A stretch of 64,000 nt of DNA from Alphaproteobacteria bacterium (GTDB taxonomy: Bacteria; Pseudomonadota; Alphaproteobacteria; Micropepsales; Micropepsaceae): NCBI GenBank assembly GCA_028871345.1, contig JAGWNK010000016.1:1-64000 (forward strand), written 5' to 3'. Each line of letters opens with the position of its first letter. The first letter of the stretch is position 1. Made by a program: the position numbers and the translations under genes. This document shows positions 46,535-64,000 of the stretch, one piece after another. The notes under the pieces were generated by a model. It ran no database searches, was not told the DNA's origin, and worked only from the letters and a program-made list of their open reading frames with translations.

Positions 46535-46599
46535 GGGATTCCTTTCCCGTGACAAGCCGAGAAGTCCAGGGAAGAGGCAAATCAGCCGATCCGCAAGTG

Positions 46600-46635
46600 A
46601 AAAAAGCGGGAGGAAGCTGAGGGCTTCCTCCCGCT
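46600..46635 (-). terminator. Strong intrinsic terminator after pstS
   Basis: AGCGGGAGGAAG (46605-46616) pairs perfectly with CTTCCTCCCGCT (46624-46635) across a 7-nt loop. The minus-strand transcript then runs into six T (46600-46605). It lies 28 bases after the pstS stop codon. Confidence 0.9.
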
Positions 46636-46663
46636 GATTCGGAACTCCCAACCGTTCAGAGAC

Positions 46664-47701
46664 TTACGGCCAAGCGTGCAGCTGGGCGGTCCAGGACGCC
46701 TCGATCTGCTTCACCACCGTTTCCGGGAACGGCACGTAGTCGAGCTTCGTGGCGTCCGCCGCACCTTCGTGCAGGCCGTAATCGAGGAACTTCAGGATGT
46801 CGCGGTTCTTGGCAGCCGGATAGTCGTTGCGCATCAGCATGTAGGTCGCCGCAACGATCGGCCAGGAGTTGGCGCCGGGCTGGTCGGTCAGGATCAGGTA
46901 GAAGTCCTGCACCTTCGAGAAATCGGCGTGGGCGGCCGCGCTCTGGAAGGTCTCCATGTTCGGCTTCACCAGCTTGCCGTCATGGTTGATCATGTTCATG
47001 TACGTGATGTTCTTGTTTTCCATGAGGTAGGCGTATTCGACGTAGCCGATCGAGCCCACGGTTTGCGCCACATTGGCGGCGACGCCGGCGTTGCCCTTGC
47101 CGCCGATGCCGGCCGGCCAGGAAACCGAGGTGTCGGAGCCGACGCTCGACTTCCATTCGGGGCTGACCTTGCCCAGATAGTTGGTGAAGTTGAAGGTGGT
47201 GCCCGATCCGTCGGAGCGATGCACCACGACGATCGACATGTTCGGCAGCGGAACGTGCGGGTTGAGCTTCTTGATCGCCGCGTCGTTCCACTTGGTGATC
47301 TTGCCGAGATAGATGTTGGCGAGCGTCGGGCCGTCGATCACCATCTCGCCGGACTTGATGCCCGGAAGATGGACGACCGGGACGATGGTGATGATGACTT
47401 GCGGGAATTGCACCAAGTGGCTGGAGGCCAGCTCGTCATGCATCAGCGGCTTGTCCGAATTGCCGAAGTCGACGGTCTTCGCCTTGATCTGGGCGATGCC
47501 GCCGCCGGAGCCGATGGCCTGATAGTTCACGGCCGTGCCGGTCTTCTGCTGATACTTCTGCGCCCAGACCGAAAGCACCGGATAGATCGCGGTGCCGCCC
47601 GCGCCGTTCAGCGTACCGGCGGCAAGTGTTCCTGTGGTCAGCGCGGCTGCCGTGACAAGGCCGGCCAGAGCGCTGAGCCCGAACTTCAAAGTTCCGTTCA
47701 T
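46664..47701 (-). CDS. pstS: Phosphate ABC transporter substrate-binding protein PstS
   Basis: A 345-residue periplasmic phosphate receptor. The signal peptide ends near LAAGTLNGAGG. Ligand-loop motifs are AIGSGGGIAQI (about 62-72), GNSDKPL and RSDGSGTTFNFTNYL. GAGGAAGGAAATACG precedes ATG 47701. The permease genes pstCAB are not adjacent. It lies downstream of a phosphate-type porin on the same strand, so the two may be induced together under phosphate limitation, and it ends in a strong terminator. Confidence 0.95.
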   Translation of the reverse strand: MNGTLKFGLSALAGLVTAAALTTGTLAAGTLNGAGGTAIYPVLSVWAQKYQQKTGTAVNYQAIGSGGGIAQIKAKTVDFGNSDKPLMHDELASSHLVQFPQVIITIVPVVHLPGIKSGEMVIDGPTLANIYLGKITKWNDAAIKKLNPHVPLPNMSIVVVHRSDGSGTTFNFTNYLGKVSPEWKSSVGSDTSVSWPAGIGGKGNAGVAANVAQTVGSIGYVEYAYLMENKNITYMNMINHDGKLVKPNMETFQSAAAHADFSKVQDFYLILTDQPGANSWPIVAATYMLMRNDYPAAKNRDILKFLDYGLHEGAADATKLDYVPFPETVVKQIEASWTAQLHAWP

Positions 47702-47767
47702 CGTATTTCCTTCCTCAGGTTGGTCCGTCACCCCGGACCGGGAAACCAAGATGGCGGCGGGGTATGA

Positions 47768-47787
47768 GCGGCCGCTCGCGCGGCCGC
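47768..47787. repeat. GC hairpin between the porin gene and pstS
   Basis: GCGGCCGC occurs at 47768-47775 and 47780-47787 around TCGC, forming an 8-bp stem. It lies in the 105-bp gap and has no T-run. It could attenuate or protect the transcript at the porin-pstS junction. Confidence 0.45.
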
Positions 47788-47806
47788 CCGCTTCACCCCA
47801 CCGAAC

Positions 47807-49054
47807 TTACCACTGGAAATCGCCCCAGATGCCGATTTCGGTGTCTTTGCCGTTGCTGCCCGGAGCAAAGGCGGTTCCGCCGATCGTGCCGTTGGAGTCG
47901 CCGTAGAAGCCGTTGCTGCCCGAGTCCTGCTTGAACACGAGGGCGAGGTCCACGATCTTCGTCGGACGGTAATCGATGCCGACGTTGTAGTAGTTGTTGT
48001 GGTAGCTCGTCCGCGCCGCGTCCGAATACGGCTTCACGTAGTCATAGCGGCCGAATACCGACCATTCCGGCGTGAATTGGTAGGAGGCAAAGGGCGAATA
48101 GCCGTAGGCGTGCGACGAAGTCGTCGACGTCACCTGCGTGAAGTTTGACGCCGTGAAGTACTCCACGCCCACCTTGAGGCCTTCGATCGTGTAGGCGGCC
48201 AGAGCGTCGAGACGTTGGGCCGTGTGGTAGGTGGTCGTACCGTGCTGCGCTCCGAGGTGGCCGATATAGCCGCCGACGGCGAGATCAAGGCCTTCCCAGT
48301 GCAGGCTGACGCGGCCCTCATAATCGGGCTGGTTGGTGCGGATGATCTTCTTGTAGCCGGCGCCAGTCGTGGCCGAGAACTTGTACTCGAGGAGGCCATC
48401 GGCCAGCTTGCCCGTCAGGAACACGCCCCAGTCCGCCGAATTGCCGAACTTCACCCGGTCGATCAGCGTATTCTCGACGAAGCGGTAGCCATAGATGCCT
48501 TCCGCATACGGGATCCATGGCATGTCCGTGGAACCGACGATCACGGTGAACGCCGGATCAAGCTTCGCCTGCAGGAAGGCCTTCTTGATATAGATTTGGC
48601 TGACGCTGATGTTCGAGTCGTAGGTCACGTCTGTCGTGACGTTGGCCGAGAACGTGTCGTCGAACTTGTGGTCGATGCCGATATAGAAGCGCTTGATGTC
48701 GAAGCTGACGCCGTTGTTCTTAGACGCGGCCCCGGCATTTTTCAGGTTCAGGTCCGTGATGTCGAAGTACATGCGCCCGCTGATCGACGTGTTGTCGAAC
48801 CAGCCGCTGACCGCCTTCCAGGACTCGACCTTGTCGTGGTCGGTTGCCTGACGCATCTCGGACTGCTGCAGCTCGGCTTCGATGGCGTCAAGGCGCTGCG
48901 ACAGCTGATCGACCTGCTCCTGCGTCTGCTGCTGCTGAGCCGCGACGTTCGAAATTGCCGCGTCGGAATTGCTCTTCGCGGCAAATCCCGCCTGCGAAGA
49001 TGCAAGAAGCGTGATAGTCGCGGCGCTCGCGACCAGTGCGCTGTTGATTTTCAT
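47807..49054 (-). CDS. Outer-membrane porin, OprP/OprO-like
   Basis: A 415-residue outer-membrane protein. It has a signal peptide (cleavage near GFAA, about 26), an N-terminal coiled coil (about 35-68, QQQTQEQVDQLSQRLDAIEAEL...) that probably trimerises, and amphipathic beta-strands ending in an aromatic residue (GDFQW). That is the layout of phosphate/polyphosphate-selective porins of the OprP group. It is followed by pstS on the same strand. A candidate Pho box lies 131-148 bases before the start. Confidence 0.82.
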   Translation of the reverse strand: MKINSALVASAATITLLASSQAGFAAKSNSDAAISNVAAQQQQTQEQVDQLSQRLDAIEAELQQSEMRQATDHDKVESWKAVSGWFDNTSISGRMYFDITDLNLKNAGAASKNNGVSFDIKRFYIGIDHKFDDTFSANVTTDVTYDSNISVSQIYIKKAFLQAKLDPAFTVIVGSTDMPWIPYAEGIYGYRFVENTLIDRVKFGNSADWGVFLTGKLADGLLEYKFSATTGAGYKKIIRTNQPDYEGRVSLHWEGLDLAVGGYIGHLGAQHGTTTYHTAQRLDALAAYTIEGLKVGVEYFTASNFTQVTSTTSSHAYGYSPFASYQFTPEWSVFGRYDYVKPYSDAARTSYHNNYYNVGIDYRPTKIVDLALVFKQDSGSNGFYGDSNGTIGGTAFAPGSNGKDTEIGIWGDFQW

Positions 49055-50222: not shown

Positions 50223-53200
50223 ATGAACGCGAAATACCCTGGGATTCCCTGCGTTATCCACGGTAACGGCGCCATCGCGGAAGTGATGGGGCATGTGTGC
50301 GGCGGCGTGATCGGTTATCCCATTACGCCATCGACGGAAATCTCAGAAATTTACGAGGCGTTCCGGGCCGGCGGCGGCTGCAATGTGTGGGGCAAGCACC
50401 CCTTCTTCTTCGAGCCGGAAGGCGAGCATTCCGCGCAATCGGGCGCCCTGGGCGCCGCGCTGACCGGCGGCAAGTACATCTCCAACGCCTCGTCGAGCCA
50501 GGGCATCCTGTACGGTCTTGAGTCACATTATGTGACGGTCGGCAAACGGGCGGGCGGCTTCGTGCTGCAGGTGGCGGCACGGGTTGTCTCAAAGCATTCG
50601 CTGAACGTCATGGCCGGCCATGACGACGTCTACGCCCTGCTGCAGTCGGGATACACCATCCTGTTCGGGTCGAACCCGCAGGAAGCCGCCGATCTGGCCG
50701 CCATCGCCTACAAGGTCAGCGCCATGTCGCTCATCCCCGTCACCAATGCGATGGACGGGTTCACCACCAGCCATATGCTCAGCGAGACGCTGATGCCGGA
50801 ACCGGCGTTGCTCAAGGAATTCCTGGGCGATCCGGCGGGCCGCATCCCGTGCCCCACCGTGGCGCAGGAAATGCTGTTCGGCGCCAAGGGCCGCGTCTTC
50901 CAGCTCAAGCAGTATATCGCCAAGCATGCCGCCGACCTGACGGCCGACGGCAACAAGAAGCTGGTCGCCTTCCTGGACTCCAATGCCGAGGCCGTCGAGA
51001 AGGACAATGCAGGCAAGCTGGTCGACAAGACCCTCGCCTTCGTGCCCGAGGAGATGCACGCCCAGTGGCGTCGCCAATGGCTCAACGCCTATGAGAAAGG
51101 CACCCGCCAGCGCGTTCCCGCGCTTGTCGACATCCACAATCCGGGACTGACGGGGCCGGTGCAGAACCAGCCCGACTTCCAGGCCGGATCGGCCGACCAT
51201 CGCACCCATTTCGTGCGCGATGTGCCGCGCTTCGTGCGCGAAGCGATGAAGGAGTATTCCGCGCTCGCCGGGCGCGACTACGCCCCGATCAAGACCTATT
51301 TCTGCGAAGACGCCGAGACCGTCATGATCGGCCTCGGTTCGGTCACCGACGACGCCCAGGCGGTGGCCAGATATCTGCGCAGCCAGGGCAAGAAGGTCGG
51401 CGTCATCTCCGTCAAGCTGCTGCAGCCCTTCCCCGAGGCGGAAATCGTGGCCGCCCTGAAAGGCAAGAAGGCCGTGACCGTTCTGGAGCGTTGCGACGTC
51501 ACCGCGCTGACCAGCTTCGTCACCCAGGCTCTCTACAAGGCGCGCGAGAACGCCGACGGCGTCCGCCACGAGGGCATCCCGGCGATCACCGCCGCCCCCA
51601 AGGTCACCACCGCGATCTTCGGCCTCGGCGCCCACGACCTGCAGCCGCGCCATCTCGTCGCCGCATTCAAGAACATGGAGACCAGGCAGGCGCCCTTCAT
51701 CTATCTGGGCTCGCAGTTCTTCGCCAAGAATCCGAACCCGCGGGTCGCCGAACTCCAGGCAAAGCTGAAGGCCGCCTATCCCGAAACCGAACTCATGGCG
51801 CTGGAGACGGAGGCCAATCCGAACCTGCTGCCCAAAGGCGCCTTCCGCATCCGCTTCCACTCGGTGGGCGGCTACGGCACGATGGCCACCGGCAAGCTGC
51901 TGACGGACATCCTGGCCGGCGTGCTCAATCTGCATTCCAAGGCGGCACCGAAATACGGTTCGGAGAAGAGCGGCGCCCCGACCAACTATTACATCACATT
52001 GAGCCCCGAGCCGGTGCTGCAGTCGAACGCCGAGATCGAGGACGTCGAGATCGTGGTCTCTCCCGACCACAAGGTGTTCATCCACTCCAATCCGCTGCGC
52101 GGCATCGTGGAAGGCGGCACGTTCATTCTCCAGTCGCAGCTTTCCCCCGTGGAGGTGTGGAAGGAGCTGCCGGCGCAGACCCGCAAGACCATCCGCGACA
52201 AGAAGATCAAGTTCTTCATCATCGACGGTTTCGCGGTGGCCAAGCCCCACGCACCCACGCCGGAACTCGAGACCCGCATGATGGGCATCGCCTTCATCGG
52301 CGCCATCTGCGGCCATGTCGACCGCATCGTGGCGGGCGCCACCCAGGAGGTGATGCTGGAGAAGATCCGCAAGGATCTCACCAAGAAGTTCGGCGCCAAG
52401 GGCGCCGCTGTCGTGGAAGGCAACCTCACCGTCATCAAGGAGGCTTTCGCCGCCACGAAGAAGGTCGATTACGCGAAGCAGGAATTCGCCGAGATCGAAA
52501 AGGCGCCTGCGAAGGCCAACGGCCGCGGCGTGGCGATCTCCGCCGCGATGTGCCAGGCCGTGCGCCCCACGGCGAGCGCCAATTTCGGCGACCACCAGTA
52601 TTACGACGACATGGTGGCGGCGCCGTTCCGCGACGGGACCATCGCCGAAGCGCCCGTCCTGCCGGGCACGGGCCTGTTCATGCCGTCCGGCAGCGCCGCC
52701 TTCAAGGACAAGGGCCTGTTCCGCCGCGACGTGCCGGAATTCATCGCCGACCTCTGCACCGGCTGCATGGAATGCACGCTTGTCTGTCCCGATGCCGCGA
52801 TTCCGAACACGGTTCACGACTTCCGCGATCTGCTCAAGACGGCGATTGCCCAGCTCGACATCACCGAAGCCCAACGCGAAGCGCTGCGCGACCAGGTGCC
52901 CGCCGTCGCCGACGCCGCCCGCGAGATCTACCGCCAGGAAAAGGACTCCAGGCCCTTCCACGACGTCGTGGCGGCCGCGGTCGAGAAGGTCGAGATCGGC
53001 AATATCACCGTGAAGCGCAACCTCGGCAGGCTTGCCGAGGCGCTCAAGGTGTTTCCGGTCTCGCGCACCCGGCCATTCTTCGACGCCATGGAGAAGGCCG
53101 TGCCAGGCTCGGGCGGCCTCTATTCTGTCGCCATCGATCCGTGGAAATGCTCGGGCTGCCTCGAATGCCTGGAAGTCTGCGGACCGCATGCGCTGGTGGA

Positions 53201-55187
53201 ACGCCAGCAGGATGCGGCCCTGCTCGAGACGCTGCAGACGCGCTTCGAATTCCTCAGCCGGTTGCCGAACACCCCCGCCCGCTTCATCGACGGCGCCACC
53301 AAGCCCGACGGCGAGACCAAGCGGCTGATGCTCGACCGCAACAACTACTACACGACAACAGGCGGCCACGGCGCCTGCCGCGGTTGCGGCGAGGTCACGG
53401 CCATCCGTCTGGTGACGAGCGCGAACCATGCGATCTACGACCGCCGGCGCAAGGACCACATCAAGGAACTCGAAGGCCTGATCGCCGAGCTCAACGCCAA
53501 GCTGGCGACGATAGACGACGCCAAGCGGCGCGAACGCATCGAGAGGACCCTCAAGACCCTCGAGAAGCGGCTCTTCAACTTCGAGACGGGACCCAGCGGG
53601 AACGGGCCGTCGGCGTCGGTCATCGCCAACGCCACGGGCTGTTCGAGCGTGTATGCCTCGACGTTTCCCTTCAACCCCTACAACGATCCGTGGGTCAACA
53701 GCCTGTTCCAGGATTCGCCCGCGGTGGCCAAGGGCATCTTCGAAGGCTTGGCCGCAGAGGCCGCGGACGACGTTCGCGCCTTGCGCACGGCCAGGCTCGA
53801 ACTCGCCGACGAATACGACCCCCAGGTCCACGACAAGGTCCTAAAGACCTTCAGCTGGCCGGATTTTACGGCGGAAGAGTTGTCATTGATGCCGACGGTG
53901 TTCTCGATCGGCGGTGACGGCGCGACCTACGACATCGGCTTTGGAGCCCTGTCGCGCGTGCTGGCGACCCCGACCCCGCTCAAGGTCGTGGTGCTCAACA
54001 GCGGCGGCTACTCCAACACCGGCGGGCAGGCCTCGACCTCGAGCCTCACCGGCCAGGATGCCGACCTTGCCCGCTTCGGCGCCGCCCACCACGGCAAGCA
54101 GGAGGATCGCAAGGAACTGGGCCTGATCGCCGCGTTCCATCCCAACGTCTTCGTGGTCCAGACCACCGCCGTGATGCAGGGCCATTTCCTGAAGAACGTC
54201 ATGGAGTATCTGAGCCACAGCGACTCGCCGGCGGTGCTCGATGTCTACGCGCCGTGCCAGGCGGAAAACCTGATCCCGGACGCGGCCGGCAGCGCGCACG
54301 GCCGCATGGCCGTCGAGAGCCGCACCAACCCCGTGTTCGTGCATGACCCGCGTCGCGGCGGCGATCTGCACAGCCGCTTCGTCCTCGACGGCAATCCCGA
54401 TGTCACGCAGGACTGGACCAAGACCTCGATCGAATATGTCGAGGACGGACAGGCCAAGCTCCTCGAAGTACCGCTGACGCCGGCCGACTTCGCCGCCACC
54501 GAGGGCCGCTTCAAGAAGCAGTTCCGCAAGCTGCCGGCCGATGCCGACGCGGTTCCGATCCATGAGTACATCGATCTTCCGCCGGCCGGGCGCGCCGGCA
54601 AGGCGCCGTTCATCTGGTCGACCGACGGGGCCAAGAAACTCATCAAGCTCGAAGTGTCCGAGGCCCTGGTTCGCCTGGTGGAGGAGCGCCGCAAATACTG
54701 GCGGACGCTGCAATACCTGGCCGGTCTCGACGTAGCCAAGCTCGACGCCGACCACCGTTCCGAACTCGATGCACTGCAGGAGCAGTACAAGGCGGCGGTC
54801 AACGAGCGGGAATCCTCGCTCGACGCGATCGCCAAGGCGATGAGCGAGCTGGCGGCCTCGTCCAACGCGCCGGCCAGCGGCATCTCGCTGGGCGGCTTCG
54901 GCACGGCTCCGGCAGCCGCGGCGGCCCCGCCAGCGGCGGCCGCCAACGGCTCGGCGGTGGTCTCGCTCGCCGAGGAAGACATCACCAAGTGTTCGAACTG
55001 CAAGACCTGCTACCAGGACCTTCCCGAGCTCTTCGAGAAGACGAAGATCGTCGTCGACGGAAGTGCGAAGGAAGTCGCGCATCTCATTCCGGGCGCCCTG
55101 GCGAAGGTGAAGGTCACGCCGGACCTCAAGAGCAAAGTCGCGCGGGTTGCCGCCAACTGCGACTCGGAGATCATCCATGAGCAGTGA
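50223..55187 (+). CDS. nifJ: Pyruvate:ferredoxin oxidoreductase with tethered ferredoxin domain
   Basis: A 1654-residue single-chain 2-oxoacid:ferredoxin oxidoreductase, most likely pyruvate-specific, that makes acetyl-CoA, CO2 and reduced ferredoxin. Domain order: alpha (GYPITPSTE...), gamma (about 540-700, FHSVGGYGTMATGKLL), two [4Fe-4S] clusters (Cys845/848/851/855 and Cys976/979/982/986), and the thiamine-diphosphate beta domain (Cys1052/1055, Cys1140, GDG 1231-1233, Cys1345). It far exceeds the usual 1170-1200 residues. A charged helical insert at about 1069-1128 splits the proximal-cluster ligands. An Ala-rich linker leads to a one-cluster ferredoxin (Cys1590/1593/1596/1646). It overlaps the Nfn fusion gene by 11 bp. 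Confidence 0.9.
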   Translation: MNAKYPGIPCVIHGNGAIAEVMGHVCGGVIGYPITPSTEISEIYEAFRAGGGCNVWGKHPFFFEPEGEHSAQSGALGAALTGGKYISNASSSQGILYGLESHYVTVGKRAGGFVLQVAARVVSKHSLNVMAGHDDVYALLQSGYTILFGSNPQEAADLAAIAYKVSAMSLIPVTNAMDGFTTSHMLSETLMPEPALLKEFLGDPAGRIPCPTVAQEMLFGAKGRVFQLKQYIAKHAADLTADGNKKLVAFLDSNAEAVEKDNAGKLVDKTLAFVPEEMHAQWRRQWLNAYEKGTRQRVPALVDIHNPGLTGPVQNQPDFQAGSADHRTHFVRDVPRFVREAMKEYSALAGRDYAPIKTYFCEDAETVMIGLGSVTDDAQAVARYLRSQGKKVGVISVKLLQPFPEAEIVAALKGKKAVTVLERCDVTALTSFVTQALYKARENADGVRHEGIPAITAAPKVTTAIFGLGAHDLQPRHLVAAFKNMETRQAPFIYLGSQFFAKNPNPRVAELQAKLKAAYPETELMALETEANPNLLPKGAFRIRFHSVGGYGTMATGKLLTDILAGVLNLHSKAAPKYGSEKSGAPTNYYITLSPEPVLQSNAEIEDVEIVVSPDHKVFIHSNPLRGIVEGGTFILQSQLSPVEVWKELPAQTRKTIRDKKIKFFIIDGFAVAKPHAPTPELETRMMGIAFIGAICGHVDRIVAGATQEVMLEKIRKDLTKKFGAKGAAVVEGNLTVIKEAFAATKKVDYAKQEFAEIEKAPAKANGRGVAISAAMCQAVRPTASANFGDHQYYDDMVAAPFRDGTIAEAPVLPGTGLFMPSGSAAFKDKGLFRRDVPEFIADLCTGCMECTLVCPDAAIPNTVHDFRDLLKTAIAQLDITEAQREALRDQVPAVADAAREIYRQEKDSRPFHDVVAAAVEKVEIGNITVKRNLGRLAEALKVFPVSRTRPFFDAMEKAVPGSGGLYSVAIDPWKCSGCLECLEVCGPHALVERQQDAALLETLQTRFEFLSRLPNTPARFIDGATKPDGETKRLMLDRNNYYTTTGGHGACRGCGEVTAIRLVTSANHAIYDRRRKDHIKELEGLIAELNAKLATIDDAKRRERIERTLKTLEKRLFNFETGPSGNGPSASVIANATGCSSVYASTFPFNPYNDPWVNSLFQDSPAVAKGIFEGLAAEAADDVRALRTARLELADEYDPQVHDKVLKTFSWPDFTAEELSLMPTVFSIGGDGATYDIGFGALSRVLATPTPLKVVVLNSGGYSNTGGQASTSSLTGQDADLARFGAAHHGKQEDRKELGLIAAFHPNVFVVQTTAVMQGHFLKNVMEYLSHSDSPAVLDVYAPCQAENLIPDAAGSAHGRMAVESRTNPVFVHDPRRGGDLHSRFVLDGNPDVTQDWTKTSIEYVEDGQAKLLEVPLTPADFAATEGRFKKQFRKLPADADAVPIHEYIDLPPAGRAGKAPFIWSTDGAKKLIKLEVSEALVRLVEERRKYWRTLQYLAGLDVAKLDADHRSELDALQEQYKAAVNERESSLDAIAKAMSELAASSNAPASGISLGGFGTAPAAAAAPPAAAANGSAVVSLAEEDITKCSNCKTCYQDLPELFEKTKIVVDGSAKEVAHLIPGALAKVKVTPDLKSKVARVAANCDSEIIHEQ

Positions 55188-58014
55188 GGCATCGGTGCCC
55201 GGATCGGACGATTTCGAGCGCTTCCGGCGCGCGGCGAACGCCCTCGAATCGACGCAGAGCGAACTCGAGGAACTCGAGAACAGCGAGGCCTTCAAGGTCT
55301 TCCAGAAGCAGCTCACCTTGCTGCGCAAGCGGCTGTTGAATGACCCGAAGTCGCTCAGGCAGGTATTCATCGCCGACGGCACGCAGGCGATCGTCTGGGA
55401 GTTCAAGCAGGACAAGCTGGGCCCCAACTTCGTCAAGACCCTATGGAACCTGCTGCTGCGCGACGACGACATGTCGACGATCCTGCAGCGCTTCGTCTGG
55501 GCCGTGCCGCTCAAGTTCAAGCGCAAGTTCATCGCGGGGCTCGATGAGCACCTCTCCGACCGCTACCCGATGTTCAAGGGACTGTCGAAAGGGTGGCCGG
55601 GCGAGAACTACATCCCGCCCTATATCCGCCCGGCGGAGGAGCGCAAGAAGGACTTCGACCTCGTGACCATGGGCTATCTGGGTTATCTGACCCAGGGCTA
55701 TAGCCAGCGCGAAGTCGATCTCTTCGTCTGGCTCGAAGTGCTGCGTGACAAGCAGTGCGACGACCGTCCCTGCGAGCAGGGCGTGTGCGACGCCAAGGGC
55801 CGCAAGAAGGGCGGTTGCCCGGTCGTCATCCACATTCCCGAGATGCTCAACCTGATGGGTTCGGGCAAATACAAGGAGGCGATGAAGCTCATCCAGGCGT
55901 GCAATCCGCTGCCGAACGTCACCGGCCGCGTCTGCCCGCAGGAACTGCAGTGCCAGGGCGTCTGCACCATGACCGGGCGACCGATCGAGATCGGCCAGCT
56001 CGAATGGTTCCTGCCCGAGCGCGAACGGCTGTTGAACAAGGCGAACGGCGAAGAGCTGAACGGCTGGACGAACTATCAAACGCCGTGGGCGAGGGCCGAG
56101 AAGCCGCCGATCGCGGTGGTCGGCTCGGGGCCCGCAGGCCTGATCAACGCTTATCTGTTGTCCGTCGAAGGATTCCCGGTCACGGTATTCGAGGCCTTCC
56201 ACGACCTCGGCGGTGTGCTGCGCTATGGCATCCCGGAATTCCGTCTGCCCAACGCGCTGATCGACGACGTCGTCGGCAAGATCGACCGTCTAGGCGGCAA
56301 GTTCGTCAGGAACTTCGTCGTCGGCAAGACGGCAACCCTGCAGGACCTCAAGGACGCGGGCTTCTGGAAGATCTTCGTTGGCACCGGCGCGGGACTGCCG
56401 CGGTTCATGAACATTCCCGGCGAGCATCTCAACGGCGTGATGAGCGCCAACGAATTCCTCACCCGCGTGAACCTCATGCAGGCCAGGCTCGACGACTACG
56501 AGACTCCGCTTCCCGTCGTGAAAGACAAGCACGTCATCGTCATCGGCGGCGGCAACACCGCCATGGACGCGGCGCGCACCTCCAAGCGGCTGGGTGCAAA
56601 GGTCACCATCGTCTATCGACGCACCAAGAAGGAGATGCCGGCCCGCGTCGAGGAGCTGCATCACGCGCTGGAGGAAGGCATCGAGCTGCAGGTGCTGCGG
56701 GCGCCGCGCGAGTTCGTCAGCGGCGGCGAGCATCACGTCTGTCACACGGTTCTTGACGTCATGGAGCTGGGCAAGCCGGATGCGTCCGGGCGGCGTTCGC
56801 CCATCGCCACCGGCCAGACCGAGACCATGGCCGTCGATCTCGTGATCATGGCGCTGGGCAACGATTCCAACCCGATCATCAAGGACTCGGAACCTCGCAT
56901 CAAAACCTCGAAATGGGGCACGCTCCTGGTGGAAAACGGCGCCGAGACGACGTTGAAGGACGTCTATTCTGGCGGCGACGCCACCCGCGGCGGTTCGACG
57001 GCCATCAATGCGGCCGGCGACGGCAAGGCGGCGGCCGAGCAGATCGCCAAGGAAATCCCCTTCACAGCCGCCGAGATCAAGGACCTGGTGGCCAAGGCCG
57101 CGGCCTACACAACCCAGGCCCAGACCGCGTACACGATCATCAAGCGCAAGGATCTGGCCACCGGCATCGTGGAGGTCACGGTCAAGGCCCCGGTGGTCGC
57201 CGGCGCCGCCAAGGCGGGCCAGTTCGTCCGCGTGCTGCCCGGTCCCAAGGGCGAACTCATACCGCTCACCCTGGCAGACTGGGATGCCAAGGCCGGCACC
57301 ATCGATCTGGTGATCCAGGGCGTGGGCACCAGTTCCATCCTGATCAATCAGATGAAGGTGGGAGAAGCGTTGGACGGCGTCGCCGGACCGCTGGGCCAGC
57401 CCTCCAAGCTGCACAAATACGCGGCGGACGAGACGGTGGTGTTCTGTGCCGGCGGCGTTGGTCTTCCCCCGGTCTACCCGATCATGCGCGAGCACTTGCG
57501 GCTCGGAAACCACGTCACGTTGATCGCCGGCTACCGCACGAAGACGGCACTGTTCTGGACGGGCGAAGGCGAGCGCGTCGACATGCTGCAGAAGAAATAT
57601 GGCAAGCAGCTCGACGTGATCTATGCCACCAACGACGGCACCTTCGGCGTCAAGGGCTTCGTCACCACGCCCTTGCAGGAGATGCTGGACGACAACAAGT
57701 CGAGCAAGGGACGCAAGATCGCCGAAGTGATCGCCATCGGCCCGCCGCTGATGATGCGCGCCGTGGGCGAGCTGACGAAGAAATACGAAGTGCCAACCGT
57801 CGTCAGCCTCAACTCGATCATGGTGGATGCCACGGGCATGTGCGGCGCCTGCATGGTGCCGGTGAACATCGGCGGCAAGATGGTGCGCAAGCACGCCTGC
57901 ATCGACGGGCCCGAACTCGACGCCCACTTGATCGATTGGGACAAGTACCTGCCGCGCTTCAATCAGTTCAAGGTGCAGGAACAGGAAAGCAGGGCGAAGC
58001 ACGGCCTCGCCTGA
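55177..58014 (+). CDS. Fused NfnB-NfnA ferredoxin:NAD(P) transhydrogenase-like flavoprotein
   Basis: A 945-residue fusion. Residues 1-190 form a helical domain that I do not recognise. Next is an NfnB/GltD-like half: Cys194/199/204/214 and Cys242/253/259/263 for two [4Fe-4S] clusters, VVGSGPAG (FAD, about 314-321) and VIGGGNTAMDA (nucleotide, about 455-465). From about 650 an NfnA/PyrK-type ferredoxin reductase follows, with FCAGGVGLPP and a [2Fe-2S] site made of Asp884, Cys889, Cys892 and Cys908, the Asp-plus-three-Cys set of Nfn. ATG 55177 has GGAGA 7 nt upstream and lies inside the PFOR gene. It probably passes PFOR electrons to NAD(P)+. Confidence 0.85.
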   Translation: MSSEASVPGSDDFERFRRAANALESTQSELEELENSEAFKVFQKQLTLLRKRLLNDPKSLRQVFIADGTQAIVWEFKQDKLGPNFVKTLWNLLLRDDDMSTILQRFVWAVPLKFKRKFIAGLDEHLSDRYPMFKGLSKGWPGENYIPPYIRPAEERKKDFDLVTMGYLGYLTQGYSQREVDLFVWLEVLRDKQCDDRPCEQGVCDAKGRKKGGCPVVIHIPEMLNLMGSGKYKEAMKLIQACNPLPNVTGRVCPQELQCQGVCTMTGRPIEIGQLEWFLPERERLLNKANGEELNGWTNYQTPWARAEKPPIAVVGSGPAGLINAYLLSVEGFPVTVFEAFHDLGGVLRYGIPEFRLPNALIDDVVGKIDRLGGKFVRNFVVGKTATLQDLKDAGFWKIFVGTGAGLPRFMNIPGEHLNGVMSANEFLTRVNLMQARLDDYETPLPVVKDKHVIVIGGGNTAMDAARTSKRLGAKVTIVYRRTKKEMPARVEELHHALEEGIELQVLRAPREFVSGGEHHVCHTVLDVMELGKPDASGRRSPIATGQTETMAVDLVIMALGNDSNPIIKDSEPRIKTSKWGTLLVENGAETTLKDVYSGGDATRGGSTAINAAGDGKAAAEQIAKEIPFTAAEIKDLVAKAAAYTTQAQTAYTIIKRKDLATGIVEVTVKAPVVAGAAKAGQFVRVLPGPKGELIPLTLADWDAKAGTIDLVIQGVGTSSILINQMKVGEALDGVAGPLGQPSKLHKYAADETVVFCAGGVGLPPVYPIMREHLRLGNHVTLIAGYRTKTALFWTGEGERVDMLQKKYGKQLDVIYATNDGTFGVKGFVTTPLQEMLDDNKSSKGRKIAEVIAIGPPLMMRAVGELTKKYEVPTVVSLNSIMVDATGMCGACMVPVNIGGKMVRKHACIDGPELDAHLIDWDKYLPRFNQFKVQEQESRAKHGLA

Positions 58015-58099: not shown

Positions 58100-58129
58100 A
58101 TGCTGACGGATGCGGAGGGCCTGCGATGA
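58100..58129 (+). CDS. Nine-codon coupled leader ORF (MLTDAEGLR)
   Basis: ATG at 58100 has an ideal AAAGGAG site 6 nt upstream. The ORF ends in a TGA that overlaps the ATG of the PorB-like gene (ATGA at 58126-58129). It may be a translational-coupling device, a leader peptide, or a remnant of an older gene start. The PorB-like gene also has its own GGAGGG site within this ORF. Confidence 0.35.
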   Translation: MLTDAEGLR

Positions 58130-58941
58130 CCATCCCTTCAAACGGCGCGTTCACCATCGGCGATCGATTGAGTCCGCCCGGCGAGAGCGCCTTGCAGGCG
58201 TCGGCCAACCGGCCCAACGCCATGCTCTGCGCCAAGCCCGATTGCGCCGGCTGCGGCGTGGCGCTGGCGGCGCGCACGGTCATCGATGCGGCGATCCGCG
58301 TCTCGAGGCGGCTGACGGTCGTCACGGTGACGGATTGCCTGAAGCCGGCGCCCAACCCTGCATCGCGAGCCGTGACATTCAAATCCGCAACAGCCGTGAA
58401 AGCTGCGGAGGGAGCCGCGCCCATTCTCGTCCATACCGACGAGGCGTCGGACGGGCTCGAGGCTCTGGCAGGCCGGGATATGCTGCTCGTCTGCTATGAC
58501 AAGACGACGGGCGAGAGGCCACAACTTTTCCAGGAGATCATCGCCGCGCCGGGCCTGCGGTATGGTGCGACGGCGACGATTGCCGATATCCGCGATCTGG
58601 AAAGCAAGATCGCGAAGGCTATGGCTCTCACAGGCCCGCGCCTCGTTGTTGTTTTGGCGCCGTGCCCACTGGATTGCGGCTCGCAACCCCAGGACACCGT
58701 CCGGCTTGCGCGTCTGGCCGTCGAGTCGGGATTGTTTCCGGTGCTCGAAGCCGAGAACGGCCGCATCACGCGCAGCCGGCGGATCCGGCGACGCCTTCCC
58801 GTTCGCGACGTACTGAAACTCCAGGCCAGGTTTGCGGACGTCCTGAAAGTCGACGGCGATCCGCGCCTGGCCGCGCTGCAAGCCGCTGCGAACGATCATA
58901 TCCGAGCCTTCAATTTGCTTCGCCGCGACGGAGAGGTCTGA
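58126..58941 (+). CDS. PorB-like protein lacking the thiamine-diphosphate motif
   Basis: A 271-residue protein resembling the beta subunit of 2-oxoacid:ferredoxin oxidoreductases at both ends. CAKPDCAGCGVALAARTVI (Cys35/40/43) recalls the N-terminal cluster site. LVVVLAPCPLDCGSQ, LAVESGLFPVLEAENG and LKLQARFADVL match the C-terminal PorB segment. The middle lacks the GDGD...N thiamine-diphosphate motif, so it should not catalyse decarboxylation alone. GGAGGG lies 6 nt before ATG 58126. It sits next to the GltD-PorD fusion (0-bp gap) and has no alpha or gamma partner. It may be an electron-transfer or scaffold subunit. Confidence 0.65.
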   Translation: MTIPSNGAFTIGDRLSPPGESALQASANRPNAMLCAKPDCAGCGVALAARTVIDAAIRVSRRLTVVTVTDCLKPAPNPASRAVTFKSATAVKAAEGAAPILVHTDEASDGLEALAGRDMLLVCYDKTTGERPQLFQEIIAAPGLRYGATATIADIRDLESKIAKAMALTGPRLVVVLAPCPLDCGSQPQDTVRLARLAVESGLFPVLEAENGRITRSRRIRRRLPVRDVLKLQARFADVLKVDGDPRLAALQAAANDHIRAFNLLRRDGEV

Positions 58942-60483
58942 ATGCGCCCCGTCTTCGTATCCCTCGAGCCCCCCTGCAACAGGGCCTGTCCGGCCGGCGA
59001 GAACATCCAGGGCTGGCTGTCCTACGCGCAGAGCGGAGATCACGAGCGCGCCTGGCGTCTGCTGACCCAGGACAACCCGCTGCCGGCGTGCACGGGCCGG
59101 GTCTGCTATCACCCGTGCGAATCGCGCTGCAACCGAATCGAGATCGATGCCGCCGTCGGCATCCAGTGTGTCGAGCGATTCCTGGGCGACGAAGCGATCC
59201 GGCAACAATGGAGTTTCACGCCCCCGTCAGCCGAGACCGGCAAACGCATTCTCGTGATCGGTGCGGGACCGGCGGGTCTGTCCGCCGCCTGTCATCTCCG
59301 GCTTGCGGGACATGCCGTCGTCATCCGCGAAGCGTCACCCAAGGCCGGGGGATTGCTGCGCTACGGCATTCCCGCCTACCGGCTGCCGCGCCAGAGGCTC
59401 GACGCCGAAATCGCGCGGATCACGGCAATGGGCGTGGTCCTCGAATGCAACACCAGGGTCAATGACATCGAGAGCGCCCGTCGCGACGGCCGCTTCGACG
59501 CCGTCTTCCTGGCCATCGGCGCCGGTCTCGCCAAGCGCACGGCCATTCCCGGGGCGGCGGCCGCGAACGTGCTTGATGCCGTGAGCGTTCTGCGCAGCCT
59601 GGAGCAGGGGGAGAAGCCGCGTCTGGGCCGCAGGATCGTTGCCTATGGCGGCGGAAACTCGGCATTGGACGTGGCACGCAGCGCGAAGCGCCTGGGCGCA
59701 GGAGACCCCGTCATCGTCTATAGGCGCAACCGCGCCAAGATGCCGGCCCATGACTTCGAGGTCGAGGACGCGCTGGCGGAGGGCGTGCGTGTGACCTGGC
59801 TTTCGACCATCACCCAGGCCGGCGAAGGCACGATCACGGTCGAGAAGATGGAACTCGATCGCAACGGGTTTCCTCAACCGACCGGCGCCTTCGAAACGCT
59901 GGACGCCGACACGGTCATCCTCGCGCTGGGCCAGGACGTCGACAGCTCCTTGCCGCGATCGGCCGGGCTGGCGCTCAGGAACGGCGCGGTCCCCGTCGGC
60001 CAGGACATGATGACGGCGACCGATGGCGTGTTCGCCGGAGGCGACATGGTTGCGGGCGAGCGCACGGCCACGGTGGCGATCGGCCACGGCAAGAAGGCGG
60101 CACGTCACATCGACGCCTGGCTGCGGGGAACCCGTTGCGAAGCGGCCGAACCTCGCCAACCGGCGCGGTTCGATCAGATGAACAGCTGGTATTACGCCGA
60201 CGCCGAGCGCAGCGAGCCCGCGATGTTGCCGATGCAGGAGCGGCAGAAGACATTCGGCGAGGTCGTCCAGGGAGTCAGTGAGCCAACGGCGATCAGGGAG
60301 TCCAGACGCTGCCTGTCCTGCGGGAACTGCTTCGCCTGCGATAATTGTTATGGTGTTTGTCCCGACAACGCGGTGACAAAGCGCGGCATCGGGCTGTACG
60401 AGTTCGACTACGACGGCTGCAAGGGCTGCGGGCTATGCGCGCAGGAATGCCCAAGTGGCGCGATCGCCATGACGTCAGACTGA
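58942..60483 (+). CDS. GltD-like NAD(P)H flavoprotein fused to a two-cluster ferredoxin
   Basis: A 513-residue electron-transfer protein. The N-terminal cluster domain (Cys12, 16, 50, 55, 59, 63) precedes the FAD site VIGAGPAG (about 105-112), RYGIPAYRLPRQRLDAEI and the nucleotide site AYGGGNSALDVA. A Cys-dense PorD-type ferredoxin ends it (Cys457-473 and Cys493/496/499/503). Similar flavoprotein subunits link 2-oxoacid oxidoreductases to NAD(P), for example in phenylglyoxylate:NAD+ oxidoreductase. Immediately downstream of the PorB-like gene, it could form a separate electron module or dock onto the PFOR. Confidence 0.85.
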   Translation: MRPVFVSLEPPCNRACPAGENIQGWLSYAQSGDHERAWRLLTQDNPLPACTGRVCYHPCESRCNRIEIDAAVGIQCVERFLGDEAIRQQWSFTPPSAETGKRILVIGAGPAGLSAACHLRLAGHAVVIREASPKAGGLLRYGIPAYRLPRQRLDAEIARITAMGVVLECNTRVNDIESARRDGRFDAVFLAIGAGLAKRTAIPGAAAANVLDAVSVLRSLEQGEKPRLGRRIVAYGGGNSALDVARSAKRLGAGDPVIVYRRNRAKMPAHDFEVEDALAEGVRVTWLSTITQAGEGTITVEKMELDRNGFPQPTGAFETLDADTVILALGQDVDSSLPRSAGLALRNGAVPVGQDMMTATDGVFAGGDMVAGERTATVAIGHGKKAARHIDAWLRGTRCEAAEPRQPARFDQMNSWYYADAERSEPAMLPMQERQKTFGEVVQGVSEPTAIRESRRCLSCGNCFACDNCYGVCPDNAVTKRGIGLYEFDYDGCKGCGLCAQECPSGAIAMTSD

Positions 60484-60502: not shown

Positions 60503-60706
60503 ATGAAAGCAAAGGTCGATATCCGCAAACAGATCGAGGTGCGCGCCTATCATATCTGGGAGAGCGAAGGGCGGCCGCACGGACGCAGCGACGAGCATTG
60601 GCGCAGGGCCGAGGCCGAAATCCTGGCGAACGGCAAGGCGAAGCCCCGCGTGCGGGCCAAGGCCGCGGCGCCGAAGGGACGAAAGACCAAAGCCGTCAAG
60701 TCCTGA
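60503..60706 (+). CDS. DUF2934 small basic protein
   Basis: A 67-residue cytoplasmic protein with the DUF2934 signature IEVRAYHIWESEGRPHGRSD followed by EHWRRAEAEIL, and a Lys/Arg/Ala-rich tail. Function is unknown in the family. It lies 19 bp after the GltD-like gene, and its last 11 bases overlap the end of the convergent hypF gene. Confidence 0.85.
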   Translation: MKAKVDIRKQIEVRAYHIWESEGRPHGRSDEHWRRAEAEILANGKAKPRVRAKAAAPKGRKTKAVKS

Positions 60707-62954
60707 TCCGGCGCGAAGCCCAGACCGCCTGGCCAAGAGCGATGCTTCCATCGTTGGGCGGAACACGGCGATGCCATAGCGGCCTGTGACCGGCTTCGCG
60801 GAGCGCATGGATGGCCATCTCCGTGAGGCTGGCGTTCTGGAAACAACCGCCCGTCAGAACAACCTGGTCGACGCAAGCCTGTCGGGCCGCCGCCGCGATC
60901 GAAGTCGCCAGTCCGGCATGGACCGCCCGGGAGATGGCGCCGAGCGTCACGCCGGATCGCAGGTCTGACAGCAACCGTTCCAGCGCGGGCTGCCAATCGA
61001 GCAGCACTTCGCCGTCCAACAGCGGGAACGGATAAGGCTCGATCATTGCCTGGTCGCTTGCTGCCCATTCGAATTCCGCCGCGGCCTGGCCTTCGTAGGT
61101 GGATCGCTGCCGGACGCCACAGAGGGAGGCAAAGGCGTCGAAAAGCCGTCCCATGCTGGATGTCAGGGGAGCGTTCGTCGGATCGCGCAGCATGGCCCGG
61201 AGCACATCGCGCTCCCGGGGCGTGAATTCGGCCAGCGGCGCCAGATTTTCCATCTCAAAGGTGCGATCGCCGAAGGCCTGATAGAGAAGGCCAAGCGCTG
61301 CCCGGCGCGGTTCGCGCGCCGCCATTTCTCCCCCAGGCAGGCGGAACGGACGCAAGTGTCCCAGGCGTCGCCAGCAATCGTTCTCCACCACGAGAAACTC
61401 ACCGCCCCAGATGGTGCCGTCGGTGCCGTAACCCGTGCCGTCCCAGGCCACGCCGAGCACAGGTGGCTGAACACCGTTCTCGGCCATGCATGCAACGACG
61501 TGGGCCAGATGGTGCTGCACCGCGACCGTTTCCCCCGCCCGTTCCGGCGCCATGCGGGTGGTGGCATAGTCGGGATGCAGATCGTGCGCGACGGTCCGCG
61601 GTTCGATGCCACGCAAGCGCAGCAGATCGTCGGCCAAGCGCTCGTGCGTCGCCCGTGCCCCCGGCGTATCAAGGTCGCCGACGTGCTGGCTGACCAGAAC
61701 CGCATCCTCGAGCGTCGCGGCGATGGTTGTCTTGAGGTGCCCCCCCAGGGCGAGAATCCCGGGCTTTGCGCCGGACAGCGCGATGGAGACCGGTGCGTAA
61801 CCTCTGGCGCAGCGCAGAACCTGCGGCTCTCCGCTGAGAATCCGTGCGACAGAATCGTCGACCGGGCGGACAATCGGGCGGTCGTGGACCAGGAAGGCAT
61901 CCGCGATGGCGCCGAGACGGGCGAGCGCTTCACTTTCATCGATGACGATCGGTTCGTCCGACACGTTGCCGCTGGTGGCCACGACGGGGAATCCCAGTTC
62001 CCGCAACAACAGGTGGTGCAGCGGAGCATAGGGCAGAAAAGCGCCGAGCCATGGATTGCCGGGAGCCACGGCCTGGGCAATGCCGTCGCGGTCCCGCCGC
62101 ACCAAGACGATGGGATGCGCGGGGGATGCGAGAAGGTCCCGCTCTTGGGGACTGACCGCGCAGGCCGCTTGGACGTCCGCCAAGGCGGGGAAAAGCACGG
62201 CAAACGGCTTGTCGGGCCGGTGCTTGCGCGCCCGCAACAGCGCGACCGCCGCCTCATTGCGCGCATCGGCGAGAAGATGGAAGCCGCCGATGCCTTTGGC
62301 GGCCACGATGCGGCCGTCACGGATGGCATCAGCCGCCCGGACGATGGCCGTCTGATCCCGCGCTTCCTCGGCGCCCCTTGCGTTGCACAAGACCACCCTG
62401 GGCCCGCAGACCGGACAGGCATTGGGTTCGGCGTGGAAACGGCGGTTCAGCGGATCGGCGTACTCCGCCGCGCAGGCGGGGCACATCGCGAATCGGCGCA
62501 TCGATGTGCGGCTGCGATCGTAAGGCAAATCCTCGATGATGCTGTAGCGCGGGCCGCATTGCGTGCAATTGATGAACGGGTAGAGGTGGCGCCGGTCCGA
62601 GGGATCGAACAGCTCACGAAGGCAGTCGTCACAGGTCGCGAGGTCCGGCACGATCCGCGCCAAGCGCGCGCCTTGCATCGCACTTTCGCGGATCGCGAAT
62701 CGACCGCCACCGAGAATTTCCATCGGCTCGACGGTCAAGGCCTCGACGACGGCGTGCAGCGGCCCCGACGATTTCAGCGCGCCGAGAAGCTGATCGAGCA
62801 TTTTCGCCGGTCCTTCGGCTTCCAGGCTGACGCCCGTGGGCGTGTTGGTGACGAAACCGGAAAGGCCCATGCGGCTGGCAACGCGGTAGACGAACGGACG
62901 GTAGCCGACACCCTGAACGATGCCGCGAATGTCGACTCGGATGCGACGGTTCAC
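60696..62954 (-). CDS. hypF: Carbamoyltransferase HypF, hydrogenase maturation
   Basis: A 752-residue enzyme that makes the cyanide ligand precursor of the NiFe site from carbamoyl phosphate. Order: acylphosphatase domain (RGIVQGVGYRPFVYRVA), two zinc fingers (Cys108/111/130/133 and Cys158/161/180/183), YrdC-like domain (AIRDGRIVAAKGIGGFHLLADA) and Kae1-like domain (VQHHLAHVVACMAENG, GVAWDGTGYGTDGTIWGGEF). Start is GTG 62954, overlapping the stop of the upstream remnant (GTGA). Its presence confirms that the adjacent hydrogenase is maturated locally. hypCDE are not in the window. Confidence 0.95.
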   Translation of the reverse strand: MNRRIRVDIRGIVQGVGYRPFVYRVASRMGLSGFVTNTPTGVSLEAEGPAKMLDQLLGALKSSGPLHAVVEALTVEPMEILGGGRFAIRESAMQGARLARIVPDLATCDDCLRELFDPSDRRHLYPFINCTQCGPRYSIIEDLPYDRSRTSMRRFAMCPACAAEYADPLNRRFHAEPNACPVCGPRVVLCNARGAEEARDQTAIVRAADAIRDGRIVAAKGIGGFHLLADARNEAAVALLRARKHRPDKPFAVLFPALADVQAACAVSPQERDLLASPAHPIVLVRRDRDGIAQAVAPGNPWLGAFLPYAPLHHLLLRELGFPVVATSGNVSDEPIVIDESEALARLGAIADAFLVHDRPIVRPVDDSVARILSGEPQVLRCARGYAPVSIALSGAKPGILALGGHLKTTIAATLEDAVLVSQHVGDLDTPGARATHERLADDLLRLRGIEPRTVAHDLHPDYATTRMAPERAGETVAVQHHLAHVVACMAENGVQPPVLGVAWDGTGYGTDGTIWGGEFLVVENDCWRRLGHLRPFRLPGGEMAAREPRRAALGLLYQAFGDRTFEMENLAPLAEFTPRERDVLRAMLRDPTNAPLTSSMGRLFDAFASLCGVRQRSTYEGQAAAEFEWAASDQAMIEPYPFPLLDGEVLLDWQPALERLLSDLRSGVTLGAISRAVHAGLATSIAAAARQACVDQVVLTGGCFQNASLTEMAIHALREAGHRPLWHRRVPPNDGSIALGQAVWASRRIRT

Positions 62955-63049
62955 GTGCCCACCGTCAGAAGCCGCGTCTCGGACCGCGCGCCGGCATGCC
63001 CGCGGGCCGCGCCGTCCATCAGGATTTTCATCGCCGGCGCCTCGTGCAT
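62951..63049 (-). pseudogene. Possible hypA remnant (N-terminal 32 residues only)
   Basis: A 32-codon frame starting MHEAPAMKILMDGAARGHAG and ending LLTVGT. It begins inside the end of the protease gene and stops over the hypF GTG. The MHE start, helix, and GAR...RLLTVG match the first third of HypA, the nickel-delivery protein, which is often encoded at this place. The rest of HypA, including the CxxC zinc site, is absent. It could be a decayed gene now serving only to couple translation, or a coincidence. Confidence 0.35.
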
Positions 63050-63522
63050 GGAGGGCTCGATGCGTCCATTTCCTCGATTTCGCAGCGTATCCGATCCGCG
63101 ACGATGGTTGTAGCGGTCGAAACGGCCGGCGACAGCGGCGCGCCGACCTCGAAACATTCGCCTTCGATGGCATAGACGATCACGGCCGAGGGCAGCCGAG
63201 CCAGCGTACGGCCAAGCTCGATGGCAGCCGCTACTCCGAAACCGTGGCTGGAAAGATCGGAACGGGATTGCGGCAGCGGACCCTGCGCCGCATCGATACG
63301 GTGAACCGTGCCTGGCGGCGCCTGCAACCTGGAGGCGTCGATCATGAAGACCGCAGAAGCATCCTCGATCTTCGCCAGGATGGCCGTCGCCTCGCCGTCG
63401 AGCTCATAGACCTCGGCACGGCCAGCCAGCATATGACGCAGGAGGCGGGCGGTAACGCGGCCGGCCCCGTCATCGCCCCGCTCAAGATTGCCGATGCCCA
63501 GAACGACGATGGTCGAGGTCAC
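63028..63522 (-). CDS. NiFe-hydrogenase maturation endopeptidase
   Basis: A 164-residue protease of the HyaD/HybD/HoxM family. It trims the C-terminus of the hydrogenase large subunit once nickel is inserted. The nickel-sensing residues fit exactly: Glu14 (GIGNLERGDDGAG), Asp62 (FMIDASRL) and His93 (SSHGFGV). It starts with GTG, overlapping the hydrogenase stop by 4 bp (GTGA), so it is dedicated to that enzyme. Confidence 0.9.
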   Translation of the reverse strand: MTSTIVVLGIGNLERGDDGAGRVTARLLRHMLAGRAEVYELDGEATAILAKIEDASAVFMIDASRLQAPPGTVHRIDAAQGPLPQSRSDLSSHGFGVAAAIELGRTLARLPSAVIVYAIEGECFEVGAPLSPAVSTATTIVADRIRCEIEEMDASSPPCTRRRR

Positions 63523-64000
63523 CCTTGGCCCCGATCCACGTCGAGGCGCAGGAAATGCGCCGAGCAGGAGATGCAGGGGTCGTAATTGCGGATGGCCTGC
63601 TCGCAGCGGTGCTGCAGCTCCTTGTCGGGAAGGTCGAGCCAGTCGCCGACGAAGCTCGTCAAATCCTTCTCGATGGTCGGCTGGTTCTGCGACGTGGGGG
63701 CGGCGATGCGCGCGAAGGTCACCGAGCCGCTGTCATCAATCGTGTAGCGGTGATAGCAGATGCCGCGCGGGGCCTCGGTGGCATGGCAGCCGGAACCGGC
63801 CCGCATCGGCCCATCGATGAAAGGCCTGTCCGGCGGCTCGTAGGCCTGGACGATCCGCAGCGCCTCTTCGCAGGCGTAGACCACTTCTACCGCCCGCACG
63901 ACGATGCTCTTGAAGGGATTGTTGCAGGTCTCTCCCAAGCCGGCTTCGCGCGCGACCTGCTGCGCTGTCGGCGTCAGCCGGTCGAAATTGAGGCTGTAGC
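63519..64000 (-). CDS. NiFe-hydrogenase large subunit, group 3-like (partial, 3' end)
   Basis: The last 159 codons of the catalytic subunit; the 5' part lies beyond the window. It ends with DPCISCSAHFLRL, giving two cysteine ligands of the NiFe centre and the His after which the maturation protease cuts, leaving an 11-residue tail to be removed. Upstream residues (CNNPFKSIVVRAVEVVYACEEAL, EAPRGICYHRYTID, NQPTIEKDL) resemble soluble group 3 enzymes (HoxH, sulfhydrogenase or F420-type), which use NAD(P) or ferredoxin. The subgroup needs the missing part. Confidence 0.9.
   Translation of the reverse strand, partial: YSLNFDRLTPTAQQVAREAGLGETCNNPFKSIVVRAVEVVYACEEALRIVQAYEPPDRPFIDGPMRAGSGCHATEAPRGICYHRYTIDDSGSVTFARIAAPTSQNQPTIEKDLTSFVGDWLDLPDKELQHRCEQAIRNYDPCISCSAHFLRLDVDRGQG

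Follow-up and report, generated by a model that had tools for sequence, protein, structure and literature searches.

A predicted orphan of a 2-oxoacid oxidoreductase operon in the Micropepsaceae: a PorB-like protein without its thiamine site and an adjoining GltD-PorD flavoprotein

Among POR-type enzymes, the NADH-dependent phenylglyoxylate dehydrogenase PadEFGHI uses a GltD-like subunit for its coupling to NAD(H). The subject of this work is a gene pair found in the window, the whole 64,000-nucleotide stretch analysed here (contig JAGWNK010000016.1 of assembly GCA_028871345.1, an alphaproteobacterium of the family Micropepsaceae), in which a gene for a PorB-like protein of 271 aa (58126..58941, + strand) is followed by one for a GltD-PorD fusion of the NF009410/PRK12771 type (513 aa, 58942..60483, + strand). 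One of the closest described arrangements is the intact por operon, porG-porA-porB-gltD/porD, which encodes a 2-oxoacid oxidoreductase with its own flavin/NAD(P) arm and is carried by the sister genomes G448, G436 and G449 (where the contig ends in porA), by G427 of the genus, and also by Accumulibacter, Rhodobacteraceae, Acidimicrobiaceae and other loci. The window proteins are homologues of its PorB and GltD-PorD, encoded in the same order at the same locus and 38% and 65% identical to those of G448; in contrast to the operon, the window has no alpha or gamma genes beside them, and its PorB, which falls 70 residues short of the G448 protein in length, has no thiamine-Mg site. PadEFGHI likewise constitutes a complete catalytic set, whereas the window PorB scores 25.5 bits against the NCBIfam model for PadI, far under its cut-off of 700. 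The beta subunits of Methanosarcina acetivorans POR (9bt4 chain C) and of Moorella oxalate oxidoreductase (5c4i/5exd/5exe) share their fold and aligned Cys positions with the window PorB, but they have alpha partners and a thiamine site, and the window protein has neither. The flavoprotein resembles the PRK12771-type NAD(P)-binding proteins, scoring above the curated cut-off of NF009410 (692.5 bits, cut-off 516), and is set apart by its dead PorB partner and by lacking an N-terminal extension present in G448 and G428, the latter being a second species with the pair. In the Sulfolobus 2-oxoacid:ferredoxin oxidoreductase (PMC5020499), the beta subunit binds the Mg of thiamine diphosphate through a GDG motif and Asn118; a CXGC loop supplies ligands to the proximal cluster and, in a docking model, contacts ferredoxin.

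Measured against these systems, the window PorB-like protein is, as judged from its residues, catalytically dead. The GGDGG thiamine-Mg motif of intact PorBs reads TDEAS; the Mg-ligand Asp of GDG is replaced by Glu and the next Gly by Ala, at columns whose conservation among 60 intact relatives is 98% or more, and the loop bearing the second Mg ligand, an Asn, is deleted. Similarity to PorB is confined to the terminal segments, residues ~6-79 and 136-271. The protein matches four NCBIfam PorB-type models, all far under cut-off (besides PadI, 89.0 of 405, 82.1 of 405 and 74.9 of 590 bits), while Pfam yields nothing at E<=1. All four conserved cluster-type Cys (C40, C43, C71 and C180), putative ligands of the proximal [4Fe-4S] cluster, are present. 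An assembly artefact or frameshift behind the lost centre was considered and rejected, since the short distance between the anchors leaves no room for the missing residues in another frame, and a second species shows a similar loss. The original prediction, made from the letters of the window, had described a PorB-like protein that keeps the terminal segments and lacks the thiamine motif, abuts a PorD-type flavoprotein and has no alpha or gamma subunit beside it. All of this is borne out, including the direct abutment, the PorB stop codon touching the ATG of GltD-PorD at 58941/58942, and alignment to intact PorBs revealed no preserved thiamine site. No close alpha was found in the window genome (G000) or in G428. 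The nearest separate alpha found in the window genome, part of a complete set on another contig, C89, shares 40% identity with that of the operon; no gamma lies beside the pair, and no genome-wide search was made for gamma on its own.

The flavoprotein partner has an N-terminal Fer4_20 domain, a flavin/NAD(P) domain and a C-terminal PorD-like two-cluster ferredoxin, the last scoring 61.6 bits against NF040684 (cut-off 120) and 56.5 against TIGR02179 (60.05), under cut-off in both. Every conserved Cys in the Fer4_20 domain and the PorD ferredoxin (15 of 15) is kept both in the window and in G428, and GltD-PorD probably is still a working NAD(P)H:ferredoxin-type flavoprotein. All seven other GltD-PorD matches at E<=1e-100 in 96 family genomes adjoin por-type genes, and none stands alone. 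Another pairing of this flavoprotein with a 2-oxoacid oxidoreductase is seen in G009 (L197 444-5502) and G010 (L198 7153-12293). There, alpha-, gamma-, ferredoxin- and thiamine-type segments, arranged as in pyruvate:ferredoxin oxidoreductase (PFOR), come after a GltD-PorD of ~54% identity; the G010 copy has one in-frame stop.

Searching other genomes for the pair, as the original prediction had proposed, brought to light the second case, G428 (locus L102; the window locus is L061). Gene order is the same as in the window: a PFOR, a PRK12779-type fusion (87% identical), a dead PorB of 242 aa and GltD-PorD (64%). The position of GGDGG reads SGEDA in G428, and common to both dead PorBs are the change of the GDG Asp to Glu, an altered next Gly and the loss of ~24 residues of the Asn-bearing loop. 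Three of the four conserved cluster Cys are present in G428, the third being lost, and the PorB and GltD-PorD open reading frames (ORFs) overlap. A chance origin of the pair is very unlikely, because the second species has it in the same place, and an oddity of the window genome alone is ruled out by the same observation. To the right of the G428 pair, only a 52-residue match to HypF was found, overlapping the maturation protease gene, where the window has HypF. The G428 PFOR (L102 12052-16994) is split over two overlapping frames, reflecting either a frameshift or an assembly error. In the gap between PRK12779 and the dead PorB gene of G428 (L102 9150-9200, - strand), a GC-rich inverted repeat precedes a T-rich stretch; it was noticed by eye and was not flagged by the scan. 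Promoter and terminator scans gave nothing above shuffles.

Comparison with the complete por operons, also called for by the original prediction, reveals where the pair comes from. In G448, G436 and G449, porG-porA-porB-gltD/porD stands at the pair's chromosomal spot and is followed by a small ORF, which we take to be DUF2934-like, and then by convergent HypF; a maturation protease and a hydrogenase large subunit come after HypF in G448 and G449, the G436 stretch ending at HypF. The opposite flank carries a peptidase-like gene within ~0.9 kb of porG in G448 and G436. For the G427 operon, neither flank was found within the 16 kb examined. The place of porG-porA is occupied in the window by a gene for a single-chain PFOR-like protein (1654 aa, 50223..55187, + strand; TIGR02176 398 bits, below the cut-off of 911), followed by the PRK12779-type GltD plus FNR-like fusion (55171..58014, + strand; NF009415 1722.6 bits, cut-off 1519) that is the upstream neighbour of the pair in both species. 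The pair is thus equivalent to the last two genes of the por operon, whose 5' half is missing where PFOR-PRK12779 stands, and appears to be an orphan of a 2-oxoacid oxidoreductase operon. PFOR-PRK12779 may have come in later, or both systems may once have stood in tandem in an ancestor. A third state of the locus is represented by G021, in which PFOR-PRK12779 is flanked by a peptidase match (96 residues, at the stretch end) on one side and by the DUF2934-like ORF with the HypF-hydrogenase genes on the other, and no por operon remnants were found at this locus. In six further genomes (L117-L122), the genes after PFOR-PRK12779 are ones that the window contig has on the far side of its hydrogenase block; the DUF2934-like ORF intervenes in five of the six, and no hydrogenase block was found between. 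An obligate linkage of the pair to PFOR is ruled out, as seven of the nine family genomes with PFOR-PRK12779 lack the pair.

How rare the dead state is can be gauged from wider searches. The PorB-like protein has matches in 19 of 385 class genomes, 21 of 398 phylum genomes and 14 of 96 family genomes, the class and phylum samples being partial and all three overlapping. Nearly all of the closer matches come in two pieces (~6-79 and 136-271) flanking an unmatched stretch, mostly in open frames of ~330-400 aa, and the relatives read out are complete PorBs in the order porG-porA-porB-gltD/porD, with some contigs ending inside the operon. A scan of named genomes with the single window protein as query gave no match; with a two-row alignment it gave 56 loci, by record titles in Alpha-, Beta- and Gammaproteobacteria, Actinomycetota, Acidobacteria and Chloroflexi. 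A GDG/GGDG/GGGG-type string occurs in 91 of 94 loci, by a permissive pattern that counts the string anywhere in the PorB frame. The three loci without it are the window and G428 counted twice (L102 and L182, which is PMKE01000132.1). In 87 of the 91 string-bearing loci a same-strand porA-like match lies no more than 2.5 kb away; PorB is at the contig edge in three of the other four (L053, L150, L185). Identity to the G448 PorB over the best segment is 68-80% in 55 of the 56 named loci, 38% in the window and 40% in G428, and the 94 loci also include six more distant POR types at 34-41% (L054-L056, L058-L060) and two, L053 and L057, at 51-53%. No wider family of dead PorBs was found in the 94 loci and partial samples searched. 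Among the matches listed for the open-licence PubMed Central literature, by titles and abstract openings, no paper on a thiamine-less PorB and nothing on a PorB/GltD-PorD orphan pair was found.

Both genes bear marks of selection, to different degrees. Frames are open in both species, and third-position differences exceed those at first and second positions, so that neither a broken frame nor a loss of codon-level constraint, the hallmarks of a pseudogene, is seen. Columns were classed by the share of intact rows (55 for GltD-PorD, 60 for PorB) having the G448 residue, using only columns where G448, G436 and G449 agree and calling invariant those at least 98% conserved. At invariant GltD-PorD columns, changes number 11 of 166 in the window, 5 of 166 in G428 and 0 of 166 in the control G427; at the most variable columns the counts are 54, 37 and 40 of 75, respectively, making changes in the window protein about tenfold rarer at invariant columns. 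For PorB, invariant columns are changed in 34 of 87 cases in the window, 17 of 87 in G428 and 6 of 87 in the control, as against 20, 23 and 12 of 31 at the most variable columns, and a further 58 invariant columns are gapped in the window, G428 or both. The two middle classes fall between these extremes in both species. Ratios of nonsynonymous to synonymous change (dN/dS, by NG86; rough, since dS in window pairs is 0.99-1.44) are 0.26-0.28 for GltD in window pairs and 0.15-0.27 in other G428 pairs, and 0.35-0.43 and 0.40-0.64, respectively, for PorB. Among the three intact sisters they are 0.08-0.23 over both genes. By these patterns, GltD-PorD is clearly constrained and the dead PorB constrained but loosened.

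The PorB fold is predicted to be kept in both proteins, with the caveat that the alignment rows behind the two AlphaFold models are mostly intact PorBs and the models lean to the intact fold. The window model (predicted local distance difference test, pLDDT, 75.5, with residues 1-27 below 50) finds its best match in the Protein Data Bank in 9bt4_C, an archaeal POR beta (TM 0.70, VIA Z 24.0, root mean square deviation 2.5 over 230 residues), and also matches oxalate oxidoreductase beta. For the G428 model (pLDDT 72.5) the best match is again 9bt4_C (TM 0.67).

What might such a pair do? By analogy with the PFOR structure and from the domain order, electrons in the intact enzyme would pass from thiamine to the PorB cluster, the PorD clusters, FAD and finally NAD(P). 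The reading we tentatively favour, at somewhat less than even confidence, is that the pair has been retained as an NAD(P)H-ferredoxin electron arm. GltD-PorD would act as a working flavoprotein, and the dead PorB would be kept as its docking or relay core, the CxGC cluster loop staying while the thiamine- and alpha-facing parts are shed; the pair would perform no 2-oxoacid chemistry of its own but pass electrons between NAD(P)H and the ferredoxin-level carriers made by PFOR. It is enticing to speculate further, although we regard this as unlikely, that PorB was turned into a non-catalytic electron adaptor letting GltD-PorD plug into the single-chain PFOR or the hydrogenase. The neighbourhood of the pair would suggest such service, and the original prediction had proposed it; the pair is indeed adjacent to both, but it is absent from most PFOR-PRK12779 genomes, and since the sisters have their intact operon next to these hydrogenase genes too, the hydrogenase setting is inherited and gives no evidence of a new role.

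Several observations weigh against a pair that was inherited from one ancestor of the two species and kept for use. The pair is missing from seven of the nine PFOR-PRK12779 genomes, and with the third cluster Cys missing in G428, a four-Cys cluster is not common to both proteins. A long window branch in the GltD tree (0.53 changes per column; G428 has 0.16, the three sisters 0.025-0.039), together with the 34 invariant PorB losses, is what relaxed selection would give. In that tree, the window and G428 group together with support no more than 80/69, and are placed beside G448, G436 and G449 with support 97/99. An rpoB species tree was abandoned, rpoB being found in 11 of 16 genomes (one partial); it was not found by family or protein search in G428, G436, G427, G021 and G007, and four of these five assemblies are listed as at least 92% complete. 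In its stead, a ParE tree of 14 genomes with 200 bootstrap trees, itself weak and with a partial G428 sequence (508 of 638 residues), groups the window genome with G436, G449 and G021 (81/88) and leaves G428 apart, its placement unsupported; the two hybrid genomes form one group in 1% of the bootstrap trees. Fourfold-site differences between the window and G428 are also higher in the pair (PorB 0.56, GltD 0.52) than in the hydrogenase large subunit, PFOR and PRK12779, which range over 0.31-0.37; for the maturation protease the value is 0.57. Shared losses and the shared place nevertheless favour a single origin of the dead state, with which the GltD tree agrees at moderate support, though common ancestry of the hybrids falls short of certainty.

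A close rival, given how many PFOR-PRK12779 genomes lack the pair and that the hydrogenase genes also adjoin the intact operon, is that the pair is a fading relic: PFOR-PRK12779 displaced the por operon, the remaining 3' half is being lost and will finally vanish, as it has in G021, and the selection recorded in the two genes mostly predates the loss. We consider this possible, if on balance doubtful. The three states of the locus would then be stages of one displacement, and the long GltD branch, the lost cluster Cys of G428 and a PorB dN/dS of 0.35-0.64 in pairs with a dead copy, as against 0.09-0.23 among the intact sisters, would all be expected; yet both genes remain open in both species with every one of the 15 GltD-PorD Cys in place, the window flavoprotein still avoids changes at invariant columns, and the hybrids, although far apart (GltD 64% identical), show no broken frame in either pair. 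The original proposal of repurposing from a 2-oxoacid oxidoreductase is upheld in part, as to the orphan origin, the dead PorB and the selected flavoprotein; the repurposing itself competes with a fading remnant. Rather improbable is a third explanation, in which GltD-PorD alone matters, as an NAD(P)H:ferredoxin reductase, and PorB is an inert passenger or folding partner held by translational coupling. The touching stop and start codons of the window and the overlapping ORFs of G428 would suit such coupling, as would the stronger selection on GltD-PorD, but in both species PorB retains its C-terminal half (dN/dS 0.27-0.31 in window pairs, 0.29-0.51 in other G428 pairs), and the flavoprotein has no stand-alone example in the family genomes searched. 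That the pair is still an enzyme, borrowing alpha and gamma from the complete POR set on C89 (alpha 431 aa, beta 309 aa, gamma-GltD-PorD fusion 878 aa), can be set aside as highly improbable, as the window PorB has no thiamine site, the C89 alpha is so distant from the operon's, and the C89 set comes with a flavoprotein and with a beta that bears a GDG-type string; the original prediction would have been undone by alpha and gamma genes elsewhere that pair with this PorB, and such a set does exist in the genome, but with partners of its own. The C89 set (L054 3277-7996, - strand) carries its gamma-GltD-PorD fusion in one frame, and C89-like sets occur elsewhere in the genus, L104 and L105 among them.

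The neighbourhood of the pair fits fermentation of pyruvate to acetate and hydrogen. Downstream of the pair in the window lie the small DUF2934-like ORF (60503..60706, + strand), the conserved right-hand boundary of the locus; convergent HypF beside the [NiFe] hydrogenase genes (60696..63173, - strand; TIGR00143 771.9 bits, cut-off 466.1); a hydrogenase maturation protease (63028..63522, - strand; TIGR00072 102.7 bits, cut-off 47.45); and the C-terminal part of the [NiFe] hydrogenase large subunit (63519..63998, - strand; whole gene L061 5520-6833), whose best NCBIfam model is sulfhydrogenase ShyA at 307.7 bits, below the cut-off of 700. This hydrogenase has an NAD(P)-type gamma subunit, by a match below cut-off. 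Some 8 kb before PFOR lies a gene for an acetate--CoA ligase-type protein with a C-terminal acetyltransferase-like part (39247-41934, - strand; all NCBIfam matches below cut-off), which may point to ATP-yielding acetate fermentation. Between the peptidase-like gene of the window (43847-46651) and PFOR sit PstS and a 415-aa ORF (46664-49054, - strand), the ORF having no NCBIfam match at E<=1e-10. Farther off, the window holds an open frame of 1656 aa (14642-19612, - strand).

Three states of one locus are thus found in related species, namely a whole por operon, a hybrid and PFOR alone, and they offer a view of one oxidoreductase system giving way to another while a portion of the older one stays under selection. 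Should the pair prove functional, its PorB would be an electron adaptor that works without thiamine, and the division of 2-oxoacid oxidoreductases into a catalytic engine and an electron-output arm could be tested by expressing two small proteins. Were the adaptor reading true, the output arm of one enzyme would have been kept while its engine was swapped.

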